A stretch of DNA of 64,000 nt, from positions 3,286,001 through 3,350,000 of the forward strand of contig NZ_LR746496.1 of assembly GCF_902729405.1 (NCBI RefSeq), read 5' to 3'. The first letter of the stretch is position 1. Each line of letters opens with the position of its first letter. Shown here piece by piece: positions 901-17,301 of this stretch. This DNA comes from Acididesulfobacillus acetoxydans. Its GTDB lineage: Bacteria > Bacillota > Desulfitobacteriia > Desulfitobacteriales > Desulfitobacteriaceae. The position numbers were made by a program, and so were the translations under genes. A model generated the notes under the pieces. That model made no database searches. It worked only from the letters and a program-made list of their open reading frames with translations, and was not told the DNA's origin.

Positions 901-1482
901 TCAACGACCCGTCAGGGCATCCAGAGCCAAGTTTAAGCGCAGGACGTTGACCCGCGGTTCGCCCAGAAAGCCGAACTGTCTTCGTTCCGTGTAGCGGTTG
1001 ACCAAAGTCTGAACTTTGGCCACGCTTAAGTTCCTGGCCTTTGCTACCCTAGCTACCTGAATCCGGGCCGCCGCCGGAGTAATGTCCGGATCCAGCCCGC
1101 TGGCCGAAGCGGTGATCAGGTCGGAGGGAACAGGGGCGTTCGCCGCCAGTCCGTTTTCCCGGCGCACCTCGGCCGCCCGCTGTCCAGCCTCTGCCAGCAG
1201 GGTCTTATTCGTCGGCCCCAAGTTTGAACCGCCGGAGCTCGTTGCGTCATAACCCGTCTTGCCGGCAGCCGAAGGCCGGCCGTGGAAATAGCCCGGAGCC
1301 GTAAAGTCCTGCCCGATCAGGGCCGAACCCACCGGCTTCCCGTCTTTATACAGCAGCGAACCATTAGCCTGGTGCGGAAAAATGAGCTGATCCAAGCCCG
1401 TCACCACCAGCGGATAAGCAATTCCCGTGATGAGAGTCATAATCAAGAGGAGCACAAAGGCTCTGCCCGCTGTTCTCAACAT
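901..1482 (-). CDS. kdpC: Potassium-transporting ATPase subunit C
   Basis: KdpC, the periplasm-facing accessory subunit of the KdpFABC high-affinity potassium pump, about 193 residues (the usual size). One N-terminal membrane segment (about 8-30) is followed by the conserved soluble domain with [24 protein letters not shown] and SASGLDPDI, and an ending that contains LNLALD. The chosen ATG has GGGTGA 8 bases upstream. The frame stays open for 48 codons further upstream, but that part is Arg-rich and unlike the family. The 229-bp space to kdpB is unusual because these genes normally abut or overlap. Confidence 0.95.
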
Positions 1483-1711
1483 CGAATTTGTCACCCTTTC
1501 CCCTAGGCAAAATAGCATCTTGTTCCCGTGAACTGCAAACTGCCGCCTTGGCGCCCGCTTTCTCAAACGCGGCTTCGCCCCAAATCTCGTACGGACCCAA
1601 GAGACCAAGATCCGCCGCGCTCCCAACGCCTGTTTCCATCTCTGCCCCGGCCCCGTGCCCGCGGCTGCCTATGCCCGGGACATGGTAGTCGTTGACACCC
1701 GAAACCCCTCG

Positions 1712-3742
1712 TTAGCTCAAATGGAAAGCGGAGAGAATCAGGTCAATGAGCTTGATACCGATAAAGGGAGCAACGATTCCCCCTAAGCCGTAGATCAAAA
1801 GATTGCGCCGCAGAATGATATTGGCACCCAGCGGCCGATATTTAACCCCGCGCAGGGCCAGGGGCACCAAGGCGATAATGATCAAGGCGTTGAAGATGAC
1901 GGCCGAAAGAATAGCACTTTGCGGCGTGGCCAGCCTCATGATATTCAAAACCTTTAATTCCGGATAGGTGACCATAAACATAGCCGGGATGATGGCAAAA
2001 TACTTGGCGACGTCATTGGCAATGCTGAAAGTGGTGAGCGAACCCCGGGTCATGAGAAGCTGTTTGCCGATCTCAACGATCTCCAGCAGTTTGGTCGGGT
2101 TGCTGTCGAGGTCCACCATATTGCCCGCTTCTTTAGCTGCTTGGGTGCCACTGTTCATCGCCACTCCTACGTCGGACTGCGCCAGGGCCGGGGCATCATT
2201 CGTGCCGTCTCCCGTCATGGCCACCAAGTTCCCTTTGCTCTGATAATCCCGGATTAAGGTCAGTTTCGTCTCCGGGGTCGCTTCCGCCAGGAAGTCGTCC
2301 ACCCCGGCCTCCGCGGCGATGGCCGCCGCCGTCAGGGGATTGTCTCCCGTGATCATCACGGTCTTGATGCCCATCCGGCGCAGCTGGGCGAACCTCTCCT
2401 TGATGCCGCCCTTGACCACATCCTTGAGATAAACTACTCCCAGAGCCCGATCACCCTCGGCCACCACCAGAGGGGTGCCGCCTTTCTTGGCAATGTCTTC
2501 CACAGCCTTTAAAACCTCCGGCGACATGTCCTTGCCCTTTTCCCCCAAATACTTTTGGATGGAATCCATGGCTCCTTTACGGATTTCCCGGCCCTGCAGG
2601 TCGACCCCGCTCATGCGGGTGTGGGCGCTGAAAGGAACGAAATGCGCGCCCAAACTGCTGAGGTCCCGTTCGCGCAGGTTATACTTTTCTTTAGCCAGAA
2701 TGACGATGCTGCGCCCCTCCGGCGTTTCATCGGCCAGAGAAGATAATTGAGCCGCGTCGGCGAACTCCTCCGGCGTCACACCCGGCGCCGGCACAAATTC
2801 CGTGGCCATCCTGTTGCCCAGGGTAATGGTGCCTGTTTTGTCCAGAAGCAGTACGCCGACATCCCCCGCCGCTTCCACCGCGCGCCCGGACATGGCCAGG
2901 ACGTTGCGCTTGAGCAGGCGATCCATGCCGGCGATGCCGATAGCGCTGAGCAAGCCCCCGATGGTCGTCGGAATCAGACATACCAGCAAGGCGGCCAGAA
3001 CGGGAATAGATACCGGAACTCCGGTATAGATGGCATAAGGTTCCAATGTGGCCACGGCCAACAGGAAGATAATGGTCAAGCCGAGCAGGAGAATGGTCAA
3101 AGCGATCTCATTCGGGGTCTTCTGGCGCTTGGCTCCTTCCACCAGGCCAATCATCCGGTCGAGAAAAGTTTCGCCCGGGTTGGCTGTAATCTGCACCTTG
3201 ATCCAGTCTGAGAGCACTCGCGTTCCCCCGGTCACCGCGCTGCGGTCACCGCCGGACTCCCGGATCACAGGCGCGGATTCCCCGGTGATGGCACTCTCGT
3301 CCACGGATGCGACACCTTCCACAACCTCACCGTCACCGGGAATGAAATCCCCCGCCTCCACCAGGACGATATCGCCCTTGCGCAACAGGGAGGCAGAAAT
3401 CTCTTCCCTTGTTTCCCCCACCAGTTTTTTCGCAATCGTTTCACTCCGTGTCTTGCGCAGGGCGTCCGCCTGGGCTTTGCCCCGTCCCTCGGCCAACGCC
3501 TCGGCGAAATTGGCGAACAAGACCGTGATCCAGAGCCAGAAAGCGATCTGCCCGTCAAACCCCACGCTCTTGATTGCGCCGCTGCCGGCATCACGCAGGG
3601 TAAAGTAGGTGGTTACCACCGCTAATACTTCCACCACAAACATAACCGGATTTTTCCATAAAACCCGGGGATCCAATTTCACAAACGATTCCTTAACAGC
3701 CTCCAAGAACATGGCCTTGTCCAGACCCGACTTTTTGCTCAT
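1712..3742 (-). CDS. kdpB: Potassium-transporting ATPase ATP-binding subunit
   Basis: KdpB, the P-type ATPase catalytic subunit (676 residues, normal length) that powers potassium import with KdpA. Visible motifs are the actuator-loop TGES (about residue 155), the phosphorylation site DKTGT (about residue 300), the nucleotide-domain KGAMDS, and the hinge [12 protein letters not shown] (about 510). The membrane helices flank these as expected. It starts 15 bases after kdpA on the same strand, so the two are cotranscribed. No KdpD/KdpE sensor pair is present in the window. Confidence 0.98.
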
Positions 3743-3757
3743 CGCCTAAAACCTCCC

Positions 3758-5464
3758 TCAAAAGGCCTTACCGGCCCACATTAATAGCTGTTCGACGATC
3801 GGACCCAAAGCCAGGGCCGGGAAGAAAGTCAAGGCTCCCACGATCAAAACCACCCCGGAGAGCAGCCCGGAAAACAACCCCCCCGTCGTCTGGAAAGTTC
3901 CCGCGCTCACCGGCGCTATTTTCTTTTTTGCCATACTGCCGGCAATGGCAAGAAGCGGCAGGATCACTCCAAAACGGCCGACAAACATCACCAAAGCCAA
4001 GGACAAGTTCCAGAAATAGGTGTTGGCATTGAGTCCCGCGAAGGCACTGCCGTTGTTAGCCGAGCCCGAGGCAAAGGCATAAAGCATTTCACTCAGGCCG
4101 TGGGGACCCGGATTCGCGAGCGAGGATGTACCCGCCGGCAGGATGGAAGCGAGAGCGCTTCCCAAGAGGATACAGGCGGATGGGATGAGCACGGCCAGCA
4201 CGGCCATTTTCATTTCAAAGCCCTCAATCTTTTTGCCCAGGTATTCGGGAGTGCGGCCCACCATCAAACCGACGATGAATACCGTCAAAATAACAAAGGT
4301 CAGCAAGCTGTAAAGACCGGCTCCCACACCGCCAAACACCACTTCGCCCAGCATCATCTGCAGCATGGGCGCCAGTCCGCCCAGAGGAGTCAAACTGTCG
4401 TGCATGGCATTGACCGCCCCGCAGGAAGTCGCGGTGGTCACCGTAGCAAAGAGGGCGGAGTTGGCCACCCCAAACCTCACTTCCTTTCCTTCCATGGCAG
4501 AAGCCCCGGTGATCCCGATTTTGCCGATCAGCGGATTACCCGCTATCTCCGAGCCGTAAGTAAGGGCCAGCATAAGAATGAACAAGATCAAGGCGGCGCC
4601 AAAAATCACTCTTCCCTGCCTGACGTCTTTAACCATGTGACCGAAAGTGAAAGTCAAGCCCACGGGAATCAGCAAAATGAAGAGCATCTCCAACAGATTG
4701 CTGAACGGAGTCGGGTTTTCGAACGGGTGAGCCGAGTTGGCATTGAAAAATCCGCCGCCGTTGGTGCCGAACAACTTGATAGCCTCCTGGGAAGCCACCG
4801 GTCCCAAGGCCAAAGTTTGGCTTGGTCCTTGCAGAGTGTGGACCGTCAGATAGGGAGATAAAGTTTGAATGACTCCTTGCGAACTCAGCAGCAAAGCCCC
4901 CAGCAGAGATAAAGGCAGCAAGATGCGCAGGGTGGAACGGGTCAAATCGACCCAAAAGTTCCCGATCGCTTGGGCCTGCCTTCGGGTGAGTCCCCGGATC
5001 AGGGCCACCGCGACCGCGATTCCGGTAGCTGCCGATGCGAAATTATGAACCGTGAATCCCGCCATCTGGGTGAAATAGCTCATGGTCGATTCCGGAGAAT
5101 AGGCCTGCCAGTTCGTATTGGTGACAAAACTGACGGCAGTATTCAGAGCTAGATCCCACCTCATGGCCCCCAGTTTCTCGGGATTGAAGGGCAGGTGCCC
5201 CTGCAGCATTTCCAGGATAAAGAGCGTCACGATACCCAAAATGTTAAAAACAATAAGTGCCCCCGCGTACTGCCGCCAGTTCATGTCCTCTTCAGGGTTT
5301 ATGCCGCACACCCTGTAGATAAGCTTCTCCAATGGCCCCATCACCTTGTCGAGGAAGGTCTTCTCCCCTTGCAAGACTTTGGCCATGTAACGTCCCAGCG
5401 GGATGGCTAAAACGACGAGTATGACGAGGTAAAACCCCATCTGGGCCAAATCATTGATTTTCAT
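3758..5464 (-). CDS. kdpA: Potassium-transporting ATPase subunit A
   Basis: KdpA, the channel-like potassium-binding subunit of the Kdp pump (568 residues). It carries the selectivity-filter regions of the superfamily, for example NTNWQAYSPES, GTNGGGFFNANSAHPFENP, TATSCGAVNAMHDS and GSANNGSAFAG. The ATG at 5464 overlaps the kdpF stop (TGATG) and has GGAGG 7 bases upstream. A GTG one codon earlier is less likely. Ten or so membrane helices are evident. Confidence 0.97.
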   Translation of the reverse strand: MKINDLAQMGFYLVILVVLAIPLGRYMAKVLQGEKTFLDKVMGPLEKLIYRVCGINPEEDMNWRQYAGALIVFNILGIVTLFILEMLQGHLPFNPEKLGAMRWDLALNTAVSFVTNTNWQAYSPESTMSYFTQMAGFTVHNFASAATGIAVAVALIRGLTRRQAQAIGNFWVDLTRSTLRILLPLSLLGALLLSSQGVIQTLSPYLTVHTLQGPSQTLALGPVASQEAIKLFGTNGGGFFNANSAHPFENPTPFSNLLEMLFILLIPVGLTFTFGHMVKDVRQGRVIFGAALILFILMLALTYGSEIAGNPLIGKIGITGASAMEGKEVRFGVANSALFATVTTATSCGAVNAMHDSLTPLGGLAPMLQMMLGEVVFGGVGAGLYSLLTFVILTVFIVGLMVGRTPEYLGKKIEGFEMKMAVLAVLIPSACILLGSALASILPAGTSSLANPGPHGLSEMLYAFASGSANNGSAFAGLNANTYFWNLSLALVMFVGRFGVILPLLAIAGSMAKKKIAPVSAGTFQTTGGLFSGLLSGVVLIVGALTFFPALALGPIVEQLLMWAGKAF

Positions 5465-5541
5465 CACAGTTCCTCCGCTTTCAACAGGGTGTAGGCCAAA
5501 TAGATTAAGAGAGCCAAAGCTACAATGCCGCCTAAAATCAT
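5464..5541 (-). CDS. kdpF: KdpF small membrane subunit
   Basis: A 25-residue hydrophobic peptide (MILGGIVALALLIYLAYTLL then KAEEL), a single membrane helix matching KdpF, which stabilises the KdpABC complex in the membrane. It lies directly in front of kdpA, and the stop codon overlaps the kdpA ATG. GGGAG precedes the start at short spacing. It is too short for usual ORF calling. Confidence 0.9.
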   Translation of the reverse strand: MILGGIVALALLIYLAYTLLKAEEL

Positions 5542-5622
5542 GTCTCCCACAGATTTCACCCCTCTAAAAGTCATTACCACCCTTTCAGGGGGTGGCTTGG
5601 GGACTCTTGCCAAATAGGACAG

Positions 5623-5937
5623 TTATTTACTCATTTTAGTTTGCCCCCCTGTTTGGCGATTATTCGGGCCCGGGCGCAACCGAAATCTAAAAGTCCGGGG
5701 GTTTCCCTTGTAGAACCGGAGTTTCCTGATCTTGATCTTATCAGACAAAGCATACTCTTTCACCGCCACATCCCCATCTTCTTGCGGAGCCGTGCGGCTG
5801 TAGACCCCCTCCAGGAAATCTATAAATTTATCCAGGAGTGTCCTTTTTCGGAAATAAGCCTCGATTCTTTCCGTGACCATAAAAATCACCAGCAAAGAGA
5901 CACCAAGGACGACTCCCTCCAACACATCCCTAAACAT
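5623..5937 (-). CDS. Small membrane protein leading the kdp operon
   Basis: A 104-residue protein that I do not recognise. Residues about 5-22 form one hydrophobic segment, followed by a basic, helical stretch (ERIEAYFRKRTLLDKFIDFL) and a very basic tail (about 70-100). A strong site GGGGAGG sits 8 bases before the ATG. It is 80 bp upstream of kdpF on the same strand, with a promoter-like sequence in front of it and none evident in between, so it probably belongs to the kdp transcript. A role in Kdp assembly or regulation is only a guess from position. Confidence 0.75.
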   Translation of the reverse strand: MFRDVLEGVVLGVSLLVIFMVTERIEAYFRKRTLLDKFIDFLEGVYSRTAPQEDGDVAVKEYALSDKIKIRKLRFYKGNPRTFRFRLRPGPNNRQTGGQTKMSK

Positions 5938-6012
5938 TCTTGATCCTCCCCTATGGTTCTAACCTCCCGGGCTGTTTCAGTTTTTCCTTCTTCCATTTTG
6001 TAAAGCGTTTCT

Positions 6013-6078
6013 ATTATAGGCTTTTCCGGCATCAAATTAGCGTAAATAGACATCCGGGGCCTATAAAAATAGCGTAAA
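6013..6078 (-). promoter_or_regulatory. kdp promoter region with direct repeats
   Basis: On the minus strand a perfect -10 TATAAT (6013-6018) lies about 75 bases before the small membrane gene. No good -35 is present, as expected for an activated promoter. Upstream, TAGCGTAAA (plus-strand reading) occurs twice, at 6038-6046 and 6070-6078, exactly 32 bp apart (about three helical turns). A related motif sits upstream of the kimA-like gene. Assignment to a KdpE-like regulator is inference. Confidence 0.5.
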
Positions 6079-6208
6079 AATATCCCGCGTGCCTAAGGAC
6101 ACCTACTGACTCCGCACCCGGACTCCCGGCAACAAAAACAAAAATAGGAAGCGGTTGAATCAAAATCGGCAATCTTTTCACCGGCACACAACCGCTCCAG
6201 ACAGGACG

Positions 6209-6237
6209 CAAAAAATAACGGCGCCGTCCCGGCGCCG
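6209..6237 (-). terminator. Terminator after the kimA-like gene
   Basis: A perfect 7-bp GC stem (6219-6225 with 6231-6237, loop GTCCC). Read on the minus strand it is followed by TTATTTTTT. It lies 100 bp past the stop codon of the potassium transporter and separates that gene from the kdp operon. Confidence 0.85.
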
Positions 6238-6337
6238 CAACATATGCCCAAGTTGACACTGCGTTTTTAGATAACATCTCCACCCGTATGGCTGCTCCCC
6301 CTCGTGGGACTCAGCTTCGGGCGGATCTCTTAACCCA

Positions 6338-8230
6338 TCACCGGCCGGTGTGTTCACACGCTTGACCCGGCTGTTCGACCACGCCGTTGCGACCGGCTCC
6401 ATGGCTTAAGTGATAGGGCACCGAGGCCACGACCATATTTTTGCTCAACGTCAGATAGGACTTGAGCAAGAGACCGGATTGGTTGTGAAGCAAATACTGC
6501 CACCAGGTCGCTGTAAAGAATTCCGGGATCAAAACCATGATCAGTTCCTTCGGCGCTGCCGACTTTTCAATCTCGTCGAAATAACCCCGCAGAGGCACCA
6601 TCAGGCTGCGATAGGGACTGGGGATGACCTCCATGGGAATATCCGGGTAATAATGTTCCCACTGTCCCTTAATTTTCCCCACTTTCTCTTCGTTAATGGC
6701 CACATGAACGGCCCTGATATCCTTGCTCAGGGATTTTGCATATTCGATCGTATTGACGACAACCTTGGTAAACCCCGCGACCGGTACAATAATCTTGATG
6801 TGCTCAGGGTGCACGCAGGTGATCGGGTCGCTGACCCGCAGCTGGCGCGCAATGTCTACATAGTGCATGTGAATTTTTGACAACATCCAGACAATAAGAG
6901 GGATGACCACGATCACAAGCCAGGCCCCATAAATGAATTTCGTGACGGAAATAACGATGAGAGCCGTCCCGCTGAACAAGGCGCCCAGCCCGTTGATAGC
7001 CGCCTGTTTTCTCCAGTGAGCGTCCTTCTTGACCCACCAGTGTTTGACCATCCCCGTCTGCGACAGGGTAAAGGCGAGAAAGACTCCTACCGCATAAAGA
7101 GGGATTAAGTTATGTGTGTCCCCATGGAAAACGATGAGCAGAAGTGCCGACAAAGCCGATAAAGTGATGATTCCGTTGGAAAAGACCAGTTTGTCTCCCC
7201 TTAAGCCGAAGGAACGGGGAAGGTAGCCGTCCCGGGCGAGCAGACTTGCCACCATGGGAAAATCGCTGAAACTGGTGTTGGCCGCCATAACCAAAATCAG
7301 GGCCGTACTTCCCTGCACTAGGTAGTAAAACCAGCCGCGCCCCACGAGCAAGGTAGCGATTTGCGAGATGACGGTCTGGTCCGAACTCGGAGTAACGCGC
7401 AAAATTTGAGCCAAGTAAGTAACTCCGCCGAATTGGAAAACAATGATTAGGCTCATAATCGTTAAAGTAATGGCCGCGTTTCTCGAACGGGGTTCCTTAA
7501 AGTTCGGCACACCGTTACTGATAGCCTCCACGCCGGTTAACGCGGAACAACCGCTGGAAAACGCCCGCATCAAAACCCAAAGAGTGATGGCAGTGGCCGG
7601 AGTCGAACCCAGGATGGGATTGACCGGAGCGGGAGGGATAGGCAGGCCGAGAGCATGTTTATAAATCCCTACTCCGATCAGGGTAAGCAAAGAGACGATA
7701 AAAACGTAGGTCGGCAGGGCAAAAACCGCAGCCGATTCTTTGAGTCCCCTCAGGTTGCCAATCGTCAAGATTAAAAGAAAGAATAAACACAACTCCACCG
7801 GGTAGGGTAACAAGACGGGAAACGCCGACGTGATGGCCGCCACTCCGGACGCAATGCTGACGGAAACGGTCAGGATGTAATCAATAACCAGCGCCGTACC
7901 CGCCACCAGACCCGGGATTTGTCCCAAATTGTCCTTAGCCACGATGTAAGAGCCGCCGCCGTTGGGGTAGGCAAAAATCGTTTGGCGGTAAGATACCGTT
8001 AAAGTGAGCAAGAGCAGCAAGATGGCCCCGGTTATGGGCAGGGAGTAAGACAGGGCAAAAGCTCCCAAGGGGGCTGTAACCCAGAGAATTTCTTCGGCGG
8101 CATAAGCCACGGAAGAGAGAGCATCCGATGAATAGACGGCCAAGGCCTTAAACTTGGTCAGCCGTTGATGAACAAGAACCTTGTTTTCTAGCGGGGGACC
8201 AATGAGAAATCTTTTAAGCAGGCGAACCAT
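6338..8230 (-). CDS. kimA: KimA-type potassium importer (APC superfamily)
   Basis: A 630-residue APC-superfamily transporter that resembles KimA (formerly YdaO), a high-affinity potassium/proton symporter of Firmicutes; family length is about 600. The N-terminus has LSSVAYAAEEIL and the substrate-loop NGGGSYIVAKDN. About 12 membrane helices run to around residue 455, then a soluble C-terminal domain (about 470-620) begins with ITCVHPEHIKIIVPVAG. In Bacillus the soluble domain binds c-di-AMP. Its position next to kdp supports a potassium role. No c-di-AMP riboswitch is visible upstream. The family as a whole is often annotated only as an amino-acid permease. Confidence 0.85.
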   Translation of the reverse strand: MVRLLKRFLIGPPLENKVLVHQRLTKFKALAVYSSDALSSVAYAAEEILWVTAPLGAFALSYSLPITGAILLLLLTLTVSYRQTIFAYPNGGGSYIVAKDNLGQIPGLVAGTALVIDYILTVSVSIASGVAAITSAFPVLLPYPVELCLFFLLILTIGNLRGLKESAAVFALPTYVFIVSLLTLIGVGIYKHALGLPIPPAPVNPILGSTPATAITLWVLMRAFSSGCSALTGVEAISNGVPNFKEPRSRNAAITLTIMSLIIVFQFGGVTYLAQILRVTPSSDQTVISQIATLLVGRGWFYYLVQGSTALILVMAANTSFSDFPMVASLLARDGYLPRSFGLRGDKLVFSNGIITLSALSALLLIVFHGDTHNLIPLYAVGVFLAFTLSQTGMVKHWWVKKDAHWRKQAAINGLGALFSGTALIVISVTKFIYGAWLVIVVIPLIVWMLSKIHMHYVDIARQLRVSDPITCVHPEHIKIIVPVAGFTKVVVNTIEYAKSLSKDIRAVHVAINEEKVGKIKGQWEHYYPDIPMEVIPSPYRSLMVPLRGYFDEIEKSAAPKELIMVLIPEFFTATWWQYLLHNQSGLLLKSYLTLSKNMVVASVPYHLSHGAGRNGVVEQPGQACEHTGR

Positions 8231-8532
8231 CTTCCCTATTCCTTTCTCTTACGAAGACTAGACGTCGGTCATTGAAGCGATACCAGCCACCGGTGTCAGA
8301 CATTTACGGCTTTTTTACCTTTTATCTTTGCCCCCTCGTCAAATTATTGCTCTTCAAAAACAGCCCAATTATAGCCCCTTTCCTGCCCTACCCTGTGTAA
8401 AAAAAGGCGTATAAACCGTAAAAATTCCGTAAAAATCACGTCCTATGTCCGTTAGGCTTTACGTAAATTAGAGAAATCATCCGTCGCTTCGCACATTAGG
8501 CTATCCTGCTGCTTTCGTTCACTTAAGCGGGC
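8231..8532. promoter_or_regulatory. Regulatory region upstream of kimA-like gene
   Basis: A 300-bp space between divergent genes. CCGTAAAAAT is directly repeated at 8416-8425 and 8427-8436 (11-bp period), with a degenerate CGTATAAAC just before (8408-8416). A perfect palindrome TTTACGTAAA lies at 8458-8467. The core matches the GCGTAAA repeats upstream of the kdp operon. A TATAAT on the minus strand near 8368 may be the -10 element. No riboswitch-like conserved loops were recognised. Confidence 0.45.
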
Positions 8533-8561
8533 TTGGACTCCAAATCGAAACGTGGTATAAT
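8533..8561 (+). promoter_or_regulatory. tatA promoter
   Basis: TTGGAC (8533-8538), a 17-bp spacer, then a perfect TATAAT (8556-8561). Transcription would start near 8568, inside or at the edge of the ribosome binding site GGAGGTG (8567-8573), which gives an unusually short leader of about 13 bases. Confidence 0.8.
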
Positions 8562-8580
8562 CTGATGGAGGTGATAATAA

Positions 8581-8793
8581 ATGTTGACGACATTTGGTTT
8601 CTTAGATCCCCCAGAATTGGTTATCATACTTGTTATTGCCCTTGTTATTTTCGGCCCCGGGAAACTGCCTGAACTCGGTAAATCTTTAGGCAAGGGCATT
8701 AGCGAGTTTAAAGCGGCTACCAACGGCGAACCGGAAAAAAAGAAAGAAGCCGTGGGTGAACCGGACAAAAAAGACGAACCCAAAAACGGTTAG
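8581..8793 (+). CDS. tatA: Sec-independent translocase protein TatA
   Basis: A 70-residue TatA/E-type protein, the pore-forming component of twin-arginine export of folded proteins. An N-terminal hydrophobic helix (about 12-27) containing [14 protein letters not shown] is followed by the amphipathic helix [12 protein letters not shown] and a charged Lys/Glu tail, all diagnostic. GGAGGTG precedes the ATG with good spacing. No tatC is adjacent, so it is a solitary copy here. Confidence 0.95.
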
Positions 8794-16626: not shown

Positions 16627-16863
16627 TCACATTACACAAGACACCGCCTTAGTGAGACTATGGGCGGTGTCTCTTTGGTCGGCCAGACCTTTGCCGGTGA
16701 TGGCCCCCATGCGGGCACTCATTTCTTGCACCACGATCAAGGCCAATGTCATCGGGATGAACACCCACAGAAGCTTAAACCCGAAATGAGCACCGGCGAC
16801 TGAATAGGTTGTGATTCCACCCGCATCGTTATTCATCCATAACTCCAAGTCTCCCCTTGTCAA
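16627..16863 (-). pseudogene. N-terminal fragment of an Nramp metal transporter
   Basis: The frame contains NNDAGGITTYSVAGAHFGF and VVQEMSARMGAITGKGLAD, the first two helices of an Nramp-family Mn/Fe transporter variant (DNDAGGI in place of DPGN). Similarity stops after GKGLAD and the frame ends about 20 codons later, where over 350 residues should follow. The natural start is also lost. A 9-bp hairpin (16640-16648 with 16663-16671) lies at the break. Confidence 0.75.
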
Positions 16864-17301
16864 TAGCTAAAAAGCCGCCCCACAAGAAAGGCCGACTTTT
16901 CGCGTCTTGATCAATTTAATACCTGTTAACCCATTAGCGTCTCTCGACATTTCTGGGCAGTGGCGTGTGGTCTATGCAGAAGCCTCACCTAACGAAGAAT
17001 CTTCAGTTCCCCCTTAAGTTATCACCAGATTTGCGGCCTGTCAAGCGTTTTAGCCGTCTTTTCGGCGATTTAGTCCCAAAGAGTGCATTTATCCTGAATT
17101 AGATCGGGGAAAGGCCGTTTCGCTAAGCCTCACGAAATCGTATCCTCCCAGCCCCGAAGCGGCACGACCTTACCTAAGCATCAGGATGATGTGCACAAGC
17201 ATTATGCTGATACGCATGATCGTGGCTGTGGTGGTTTTACCTGCTCCACGATAAATGGTAAAATGACTGGGGATGCTTCGTCAGAAAGAGGTGCCTAACC
17301 T
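16864..17301. other. Intergenic region without a gene
   Basis: About 440 bp with no supported gene. A GGTAAAATG sequence near 17.26 kb could be part of the promoter for the transporter remnant that follows. Confidence 0.45.

Follow-up and report, generated by a model that had tools for sequence, protein, structure and literature searches.

Predicted KdpE operators of a shared two-box layout precede kimA and the kdp operon in Acididesulfobacillus acetoxydans

Introduction

What controls two potassium transporters that are encoded side by side? In the 64,000-nucleotide stretch of A. acetoxydans DNA analysed here (the window), two units follow one another on the minus strand, kimA (8230-6338) and then orf104-kdpF-kdpA-kdpB-kdpC (5937-901). 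The importer KimA is known to be controlled by c-di-AMP through a riboswitch on its mRNA, as in B. subtilis and in bacteria of the B. cereus group, and for kdp operons the riboswitch and KdpDE have been reported to be mutually exclusive (PMC6488665). E. coli KdpE binds TTTATA and TTTACA, 5 bp apart, with a footprint from -72 to -50, and binding is lost once TTTA is altered (PMC3264566). A first-pass annotation of the window saw a repeat, SCGTAAA, in front of both units, recognised no c-di-AMP riboswitch at either place, and suggested a common regulator that binds direct repeats. We find that the suggestion is strongly supported by sequence comparison and that the predicted regulator can be named as KdpE.

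Results

The kimA product is KimA by full-length homology, and potassium transport is its predicted function. The kdp operon opens with orf104, which has no Pfam or NCBIfam match; its homologues occur in ten kdp loci, its own included, with 32-76% identity at the kdp loci of relatives, and it is possibly an unannotated Kdp accessory protein. The true kdpC start is probably internal to the longest open frame (Table 1). No TrkH/KtrB-family gene was found in the genome. Most potassium may therefore enter through Kdp and KimA, and the repeat cannot lie near other trk/ktr genes, where the first-pass annotation had recommended looking for it. KdpABC was undetected in the A. acetoxydans proteome at pH 3.9 or 5.0, in a study that cites unpublished transcriptomics in agreement (PMC8982180); an operon that is off when potassium is plentiful would be expected to behave in this way. 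A second KimA paralog (39% identity; G000:C1:1876132-1877994, locus L143 4085-6055) is encoded in the same genome with neither the box described below nor a c-di-AMP riboswitch, and its orthologs in relatives often have the box. Other structured RNAs include a Mg2+-responsive M-box riboswitch in the window (16845-17003, minus strand) and, elsewhere in the genome, an Ornate Large Extremophilic (OLE) RNA (locus L019 3588-4167, plus strand, 391 bits).

The two promoters share one layout when the coding (minus) strand is read. The heptamers lie where the first-pass annotation had placed them, GCGTAAA at 6040-6046 and 6072-6078 (32 bp apart) by kdp and CCGTAAA at 8416-8422 and 8427-8433 (11 bp apart) upstream of the kimA-like gene; the kdp -10 element is also as described, and 11 and 32 bp are indeed whole helical turns. 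SCGTAAA is nevertheless a misreading of the unit, which is a TTTAYR half-site on the minus strand. Read in this way, each promoter has one half-site that had been missed (TTTATA at 6067-6062 for kdp, TTTACA at 8401-8396 for kimA), as had the arrangement common to both: half-sites at offsets 0, 11 and 32, with TATAAT at +60. From 6078 the kdp promoter is TTTACG-N5-TTTATA-N15-TTTACG-N22-TATAAT, and from 8433 the kimA promoter is TTTACG-N5-TTTACG-N15-TTTACA-N22-TATAAT. At neither -10 element was a consensus sigma-70 -35/-10 pair called, which fits an activator-dependent promoter; in both cases the -35 region is taken up by the third half-site. The element TTTACGTAAA, correctly reported by the kimA repeats (8458-8467), was rejected as a component of the system: it is out of register and missing from the near relative CEB3, and thus is probably irrelevant.

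Table 1. Predicted operator elements and genes of the kimA and kdp units, in window coordinates
Feature	Position	Strand	Basis or remark
kdp predicted KdpE half-site 1, TTTACG, offset 0	6073..6078	-	pattern match; kept in relatives
kdp predicted KdpE half-site 2, TTTATA, offset 11	6062..6067	-	pattern match; absent from first-pass annotation
kdp half-site 3, TTTACG, offset 32, opens proximal box	6041..6046	-	pattern match
kdp half-site 4, degenerate TTGATG, offset 43	6030..6035	-	from alignment of 35 sites, outside query
kdp -10 element TATAAT, offset 60	6013..6018	-	pattern match
kimA predicted KdpE half-site 1, TTTACG, offset 0	8428..8433	-	pattern match
kimA predicted KdpE half-site 2, TTTACG, offset 11	8417..8422	-	pattern match
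kimA half-site 3, TTTACA, offset 32	8396..8401	-	pattern match; absent from first-pass annotation
kimA -10 element TATAAT, offset 60	8368..8373	-	pattern match
kimA, K+ importer (predicted), 630 aa	6338..8230	-	PF13520; B. subtilis KimA 6s3k, E=1.4e-176, residues 3-608
intrinsic-terminator-like hairpin between kimA and kdp promoter	6218..6238	-
orf104, small predicted membrane protein, first in kdp operon, between kdp promoter and kdpF	5623..5937	-
kdpF, 25 aa, MILGGIVALALLIYLAYTLLKAEEL	5464..5541	-	size, hydrophobicity, position
kdpA	3758..5467	-	PF03814, TIGR00680
kdpB	1712..3742	-	TIGR01497
kdpC, longest open frame	901..1626	-	PF02669, TIGR00681; match from residue 55

The distal pair agrees closely with the KdpE operator of E. 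coli. Two 6-bp direct repeats 5 bp apart are present as TTTACG-N5-TTTATA and TTTACG-N5-TTTACG, and the last base of the half-site, A in the E. coli site, is A or G here. The kdp promoter of E. coli K-12 has its first half-site 59 bp ahead of the -10 element, which we take to be TACCCT. This is one base off the 60 of the window, where the start site is a predicted one and the pair likewise lies upstream of the -35 region.

Is the layout more than chance? The heptamer SCGTAAA was ruled out as the motif because it is too common, with 25 occurrences in the window where shuffles give 14.3 +/- 3.9, a mild enrichment only. The full four-element pattern, with up to 3 mismatches of 24 allowed, has exactly two matches in the 4,520,225-bp genome, at the kdp and kimA promoters, and a reversed control pattern at the same threshold has none in the same 4.52-Mb genome. 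Both matches have 0 mismatches by construction, the pattern having been written from these two sites; the absence of any other site with up to 3 mismatches is not by construction, and the relatives offer an independent test. Partial matches elsewhere in the genome were set aside. One other GCGTAAA pair, at 1997095, is within a predicted reading frame, and of four other matches to the 18-bp double half-site three are in reading frames and one points into the 3' end of a gene, so that none is upstream of a correctly oriented gene.

Conservation was followed in 61 genomes of the order, this one included, with up to 2 mismatches allowed. The full pattern gave 47 matches, against 4 for the control, and by coordinates 37 of these are at potassium genes (kdpA 15, kimA 10, kdpD 12), that is, no more than 900 bp upstream of one of the three and on its strand. 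Reading the downstream genes added four (in G013, G027, G040 and G015), which brings to 41 of 47 the matches at kdpFABC, kimA or kdpDE. The gene downstream of the box is kimA in G015, and in the other three (loci L186 and L190 for G013 and G040, L187 for G027) the boxed unit begins with a short KdpD-like kinase that lacks the N-terminal KdpD domain and is followed by KdpE, then by kimA in G013 and likewise with KimA in G040. Among matches with 0-1 mismatch, potassium genes explain 35 of 36. The six of 47 away from potassium genes count against a KdpE assignment. In G020 and G021 (L188, L191) a box with 2 mismatches is upstream of a 164-aa predicted membrane protein unrelated to known potassium genes, possibly a further KdpE target. 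A class-wide search yielded eight loci from further genomes, seven with KdpA, KimA or KdpD close by, although one of the seven (L203) has no more than 41 residues of KdpA, which overlap the site, with KimA farther on; the eighth (L207) has none of the three. The class sample beyond the order gave no match in its only nine genomes, too few to say much. The phased arrangement is not found at random sites, either in this genome or in relatives, which was the check that the first-pass annotation had called for.

Alignment of 35 sites revealed a fourth half-site at offset 43, outside the query, with T at position 43 in 100% and A at position 46 in 97%; TTTA is common at no other position. The architecture is therefore one of two boxes in tandem, set three helical turns (32 bp) from each other. 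Another group of kimA genes (L061-L066, L070) has offsets 0/11/43 with the -10 element at 59. In Peptococcaceae bacterium CEB3, the nearest named relative (KimA 93%), both promoters are conserved, and the half-sites are kept while the spacers have changed.

The predicted regulator is itself encoded in the same genome, about 2.1 Mb away from kdp and kimA, a lack of linkage that counts against KdpE as the regulator. KdpD is full-length (905 aa, 41% identical to E. coli KdpD), and its PF02702 N-terminal domain scores 308.3 bits, above the curated cut-off of 26.1. KdpE (227 aa) is 56.5% identical to E. coli KdpE and conserves R193, R200 and T215, residues that E. coli KdpE needs for DNA binding; against NCBIfam NF007820, a model named after the enterobacterial protein PRK10529, it scores 291.9 bits, under the cut-off of 325, which counts against the assignment, although among 104 models this one matches best by far. 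Many relatives carry a box before kdpD, and none was found there in this genome. A further point against KdpE is that in G012 kimA is boxed and there is no PF02702 KdpD, although a gene for a 47%-identical regulator lies directly upstream. KdpD matches four of the five positions of the c-di-AMP-binding motif (A/G/C)XSXSX2N...(Y/F), reading CISPSPFS...Y with S in place of N. Just upstream of kdpDE, an M-box (Mg2+) riboswitch precedes an Nramp-like gene (locus L014 541-707, plus strand).

How do the box and the riboswitch divide kimA among relatives? Five relatives carry a c-di-AMP riboswitch on kimA (G037, G039, G041, G043, G058), and two of these, G043 and G058, have no KdpD and no close KdpE, their best regulators being about 40% identical. 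Conversely, four genomes without kdpA (G038, G040, G042, G055) retain kdpD beside a boxed kimA, in G055 with a KdpE-like regulator between the two, which suggests that KdpDE could serve KimA alone. Across 58 kimA upstream regions the box is present in 20 (up to 3 mismatches), the riboswitch in five, and both in none. Strict per-gene exclusivity was not retained as a claim: zero overlap is expected by chance at about 11%, which is weak and not significant by itself. The data suggest an exchange of box and riboswitch at kimA similar to the one reported for kdp operons.

Discussion

We propose that the repeats are KdpE operators and that they define a KdpE regulon with two tandem boxes, KimA included, a reading in which we place high confidence. 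When potassium is limiting, the kinase KdpD would phosphorylate KdpE, and KdpE dimers would bind the distal box through half-sites at about -72 and -61. Dimers would also occupy the second box, which lies downstream by 32 bp (three helical turns), through a half-site at about -40, which overlaps the missing -35 element, and a weaker one at about -29. Bound KdpE would recruit RNA polymerase to TATAAT, such that kimA and orf104-kdpFABC would be induced together, each from its own promoter and with the terminator between them. A protein regulator would here control KimA, whose B. subtilis counterpart is under a c-di-AMP (ydaO) riboswitch. The sequences directly show the sites, their conservation, their near-confinement to potassium-uptake genes and kdpDE, and the presence of KdpDE; KdpE binding, activation at low potassium, co-induction of the two units and the signal are the predicted parts of this scheme.

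Could another regulator of the OmpR/PhoB family, of the PhoP/PhoB, WalR or MtrA type, bind a similar 11-bp direct repeat at both promoters? The family generally binds such repeats; M. tuberculosis PhoP, for example, recognizes 7-bp motifs with a 4-bp spacer (PMC4832192). Several other regulators of the family, sharing 36-43% identity with KdpE, are encoded in this genome. TTTACA also resembles TT(A/T/C)A(C/T)A, the half-site of PhoP in B. subtilis. However, the matches are almost confined to kdpFABC, kimA and kdpDE, several of them at kdpDE itself, and the E. coli KdpE site agrees with them both in half-site and in spacing from the -10 element; we therefore regard a different family member as improbable.

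Two further explanations dispense with such a regulator. The view that the repeats arose by chance or reflect A+T-rich promoter sequence in general, the transporters being regulated separately, gains something from the common heptamer and the A+T-rich upstream regions, but both of the two genome-wide matches fall at the kdp and kimA promoters, CEB3 keeps the half-sites despite its changed spacers, and no shuffle of the kimA upstream region comes closer than 6 mismatches, where the actual sequence has 0 (for 600-bp kimA upstream regions in general, the best of 40 shuffles usually has 4-7). Coincidence is accordingly very unlikely. Scarcely any probability attaches to an undetected c-di-AMP riboswitch as the real control in one or both leaders, even though kimA is known to be controlled in this way in B. 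subtilis and the B. cereus group, and this genome has two good c-di-AMP riboswitches at other places. The covariance model RF00379 (c-di-AMP, ydaO) found none upstream of kimA or kdp at its gathering score, nor at permissive thresholds, with no match in 5400-8700 up to E=5, in line with the first-pass annotation; the leaders, from -10 to first codon, measure only about 75 nt for kdp and 140 nt for kimA, whereas the aptamer has 134 positions.

The KdpE regulon proposed here joins a known regulator and site type to a second box and to what appears to be a new transporter target, KimA. As at E. coli kdpFABC, two TTTAYR half-sites 11 bp apart lie upstream of kdpF(ABC), at a distance of 59-60 bp from the -10 element. 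Unlike the E. coli promoter, in which no second box was found, those described here have one 32 bp downstream over the -35 region, and the layout also precedes kimA and, in relatives, kdpDE. The comparison with ydaO-riboswitch control in Bacillus (PMC6488665) is similarly mixed: the transporters are the same and higher expression is expected at scarce potassium, but there is no riboswitch here and the predicted two-component regulator would act at transcription initiation. The exclusion reported in that study concerns kdp operons, whereas the exchange suggested here concerns kimA. KimA itself resembles B. subtilis KimA (PDB 6s3k) over its full length and differs in the predicted regulation of its gene. 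The papers searched on KimA with KdpE or KdpDE, which take in only part of the subscription literature, contained no report of KdpE controlling kimA.

More broadly, we think it likely that KdpDE serves this order of Bacillota as a general potassium-starvation regulator, one that acts through a tandem two-box promoter and replaces the kimA riboswitch, with KimA as its linked target in the genomes without kdpFABC (G038, G040, G042, G055). If so, a two-component system and a riboswitch would be interchangeable on one transporter, KdpE would gain a second transporter target beyond the Kdp pump, and searches for the promoter layout would help to predict which genes of acidophilic sulfate reducers and related bacteria respond to potassium starvation.
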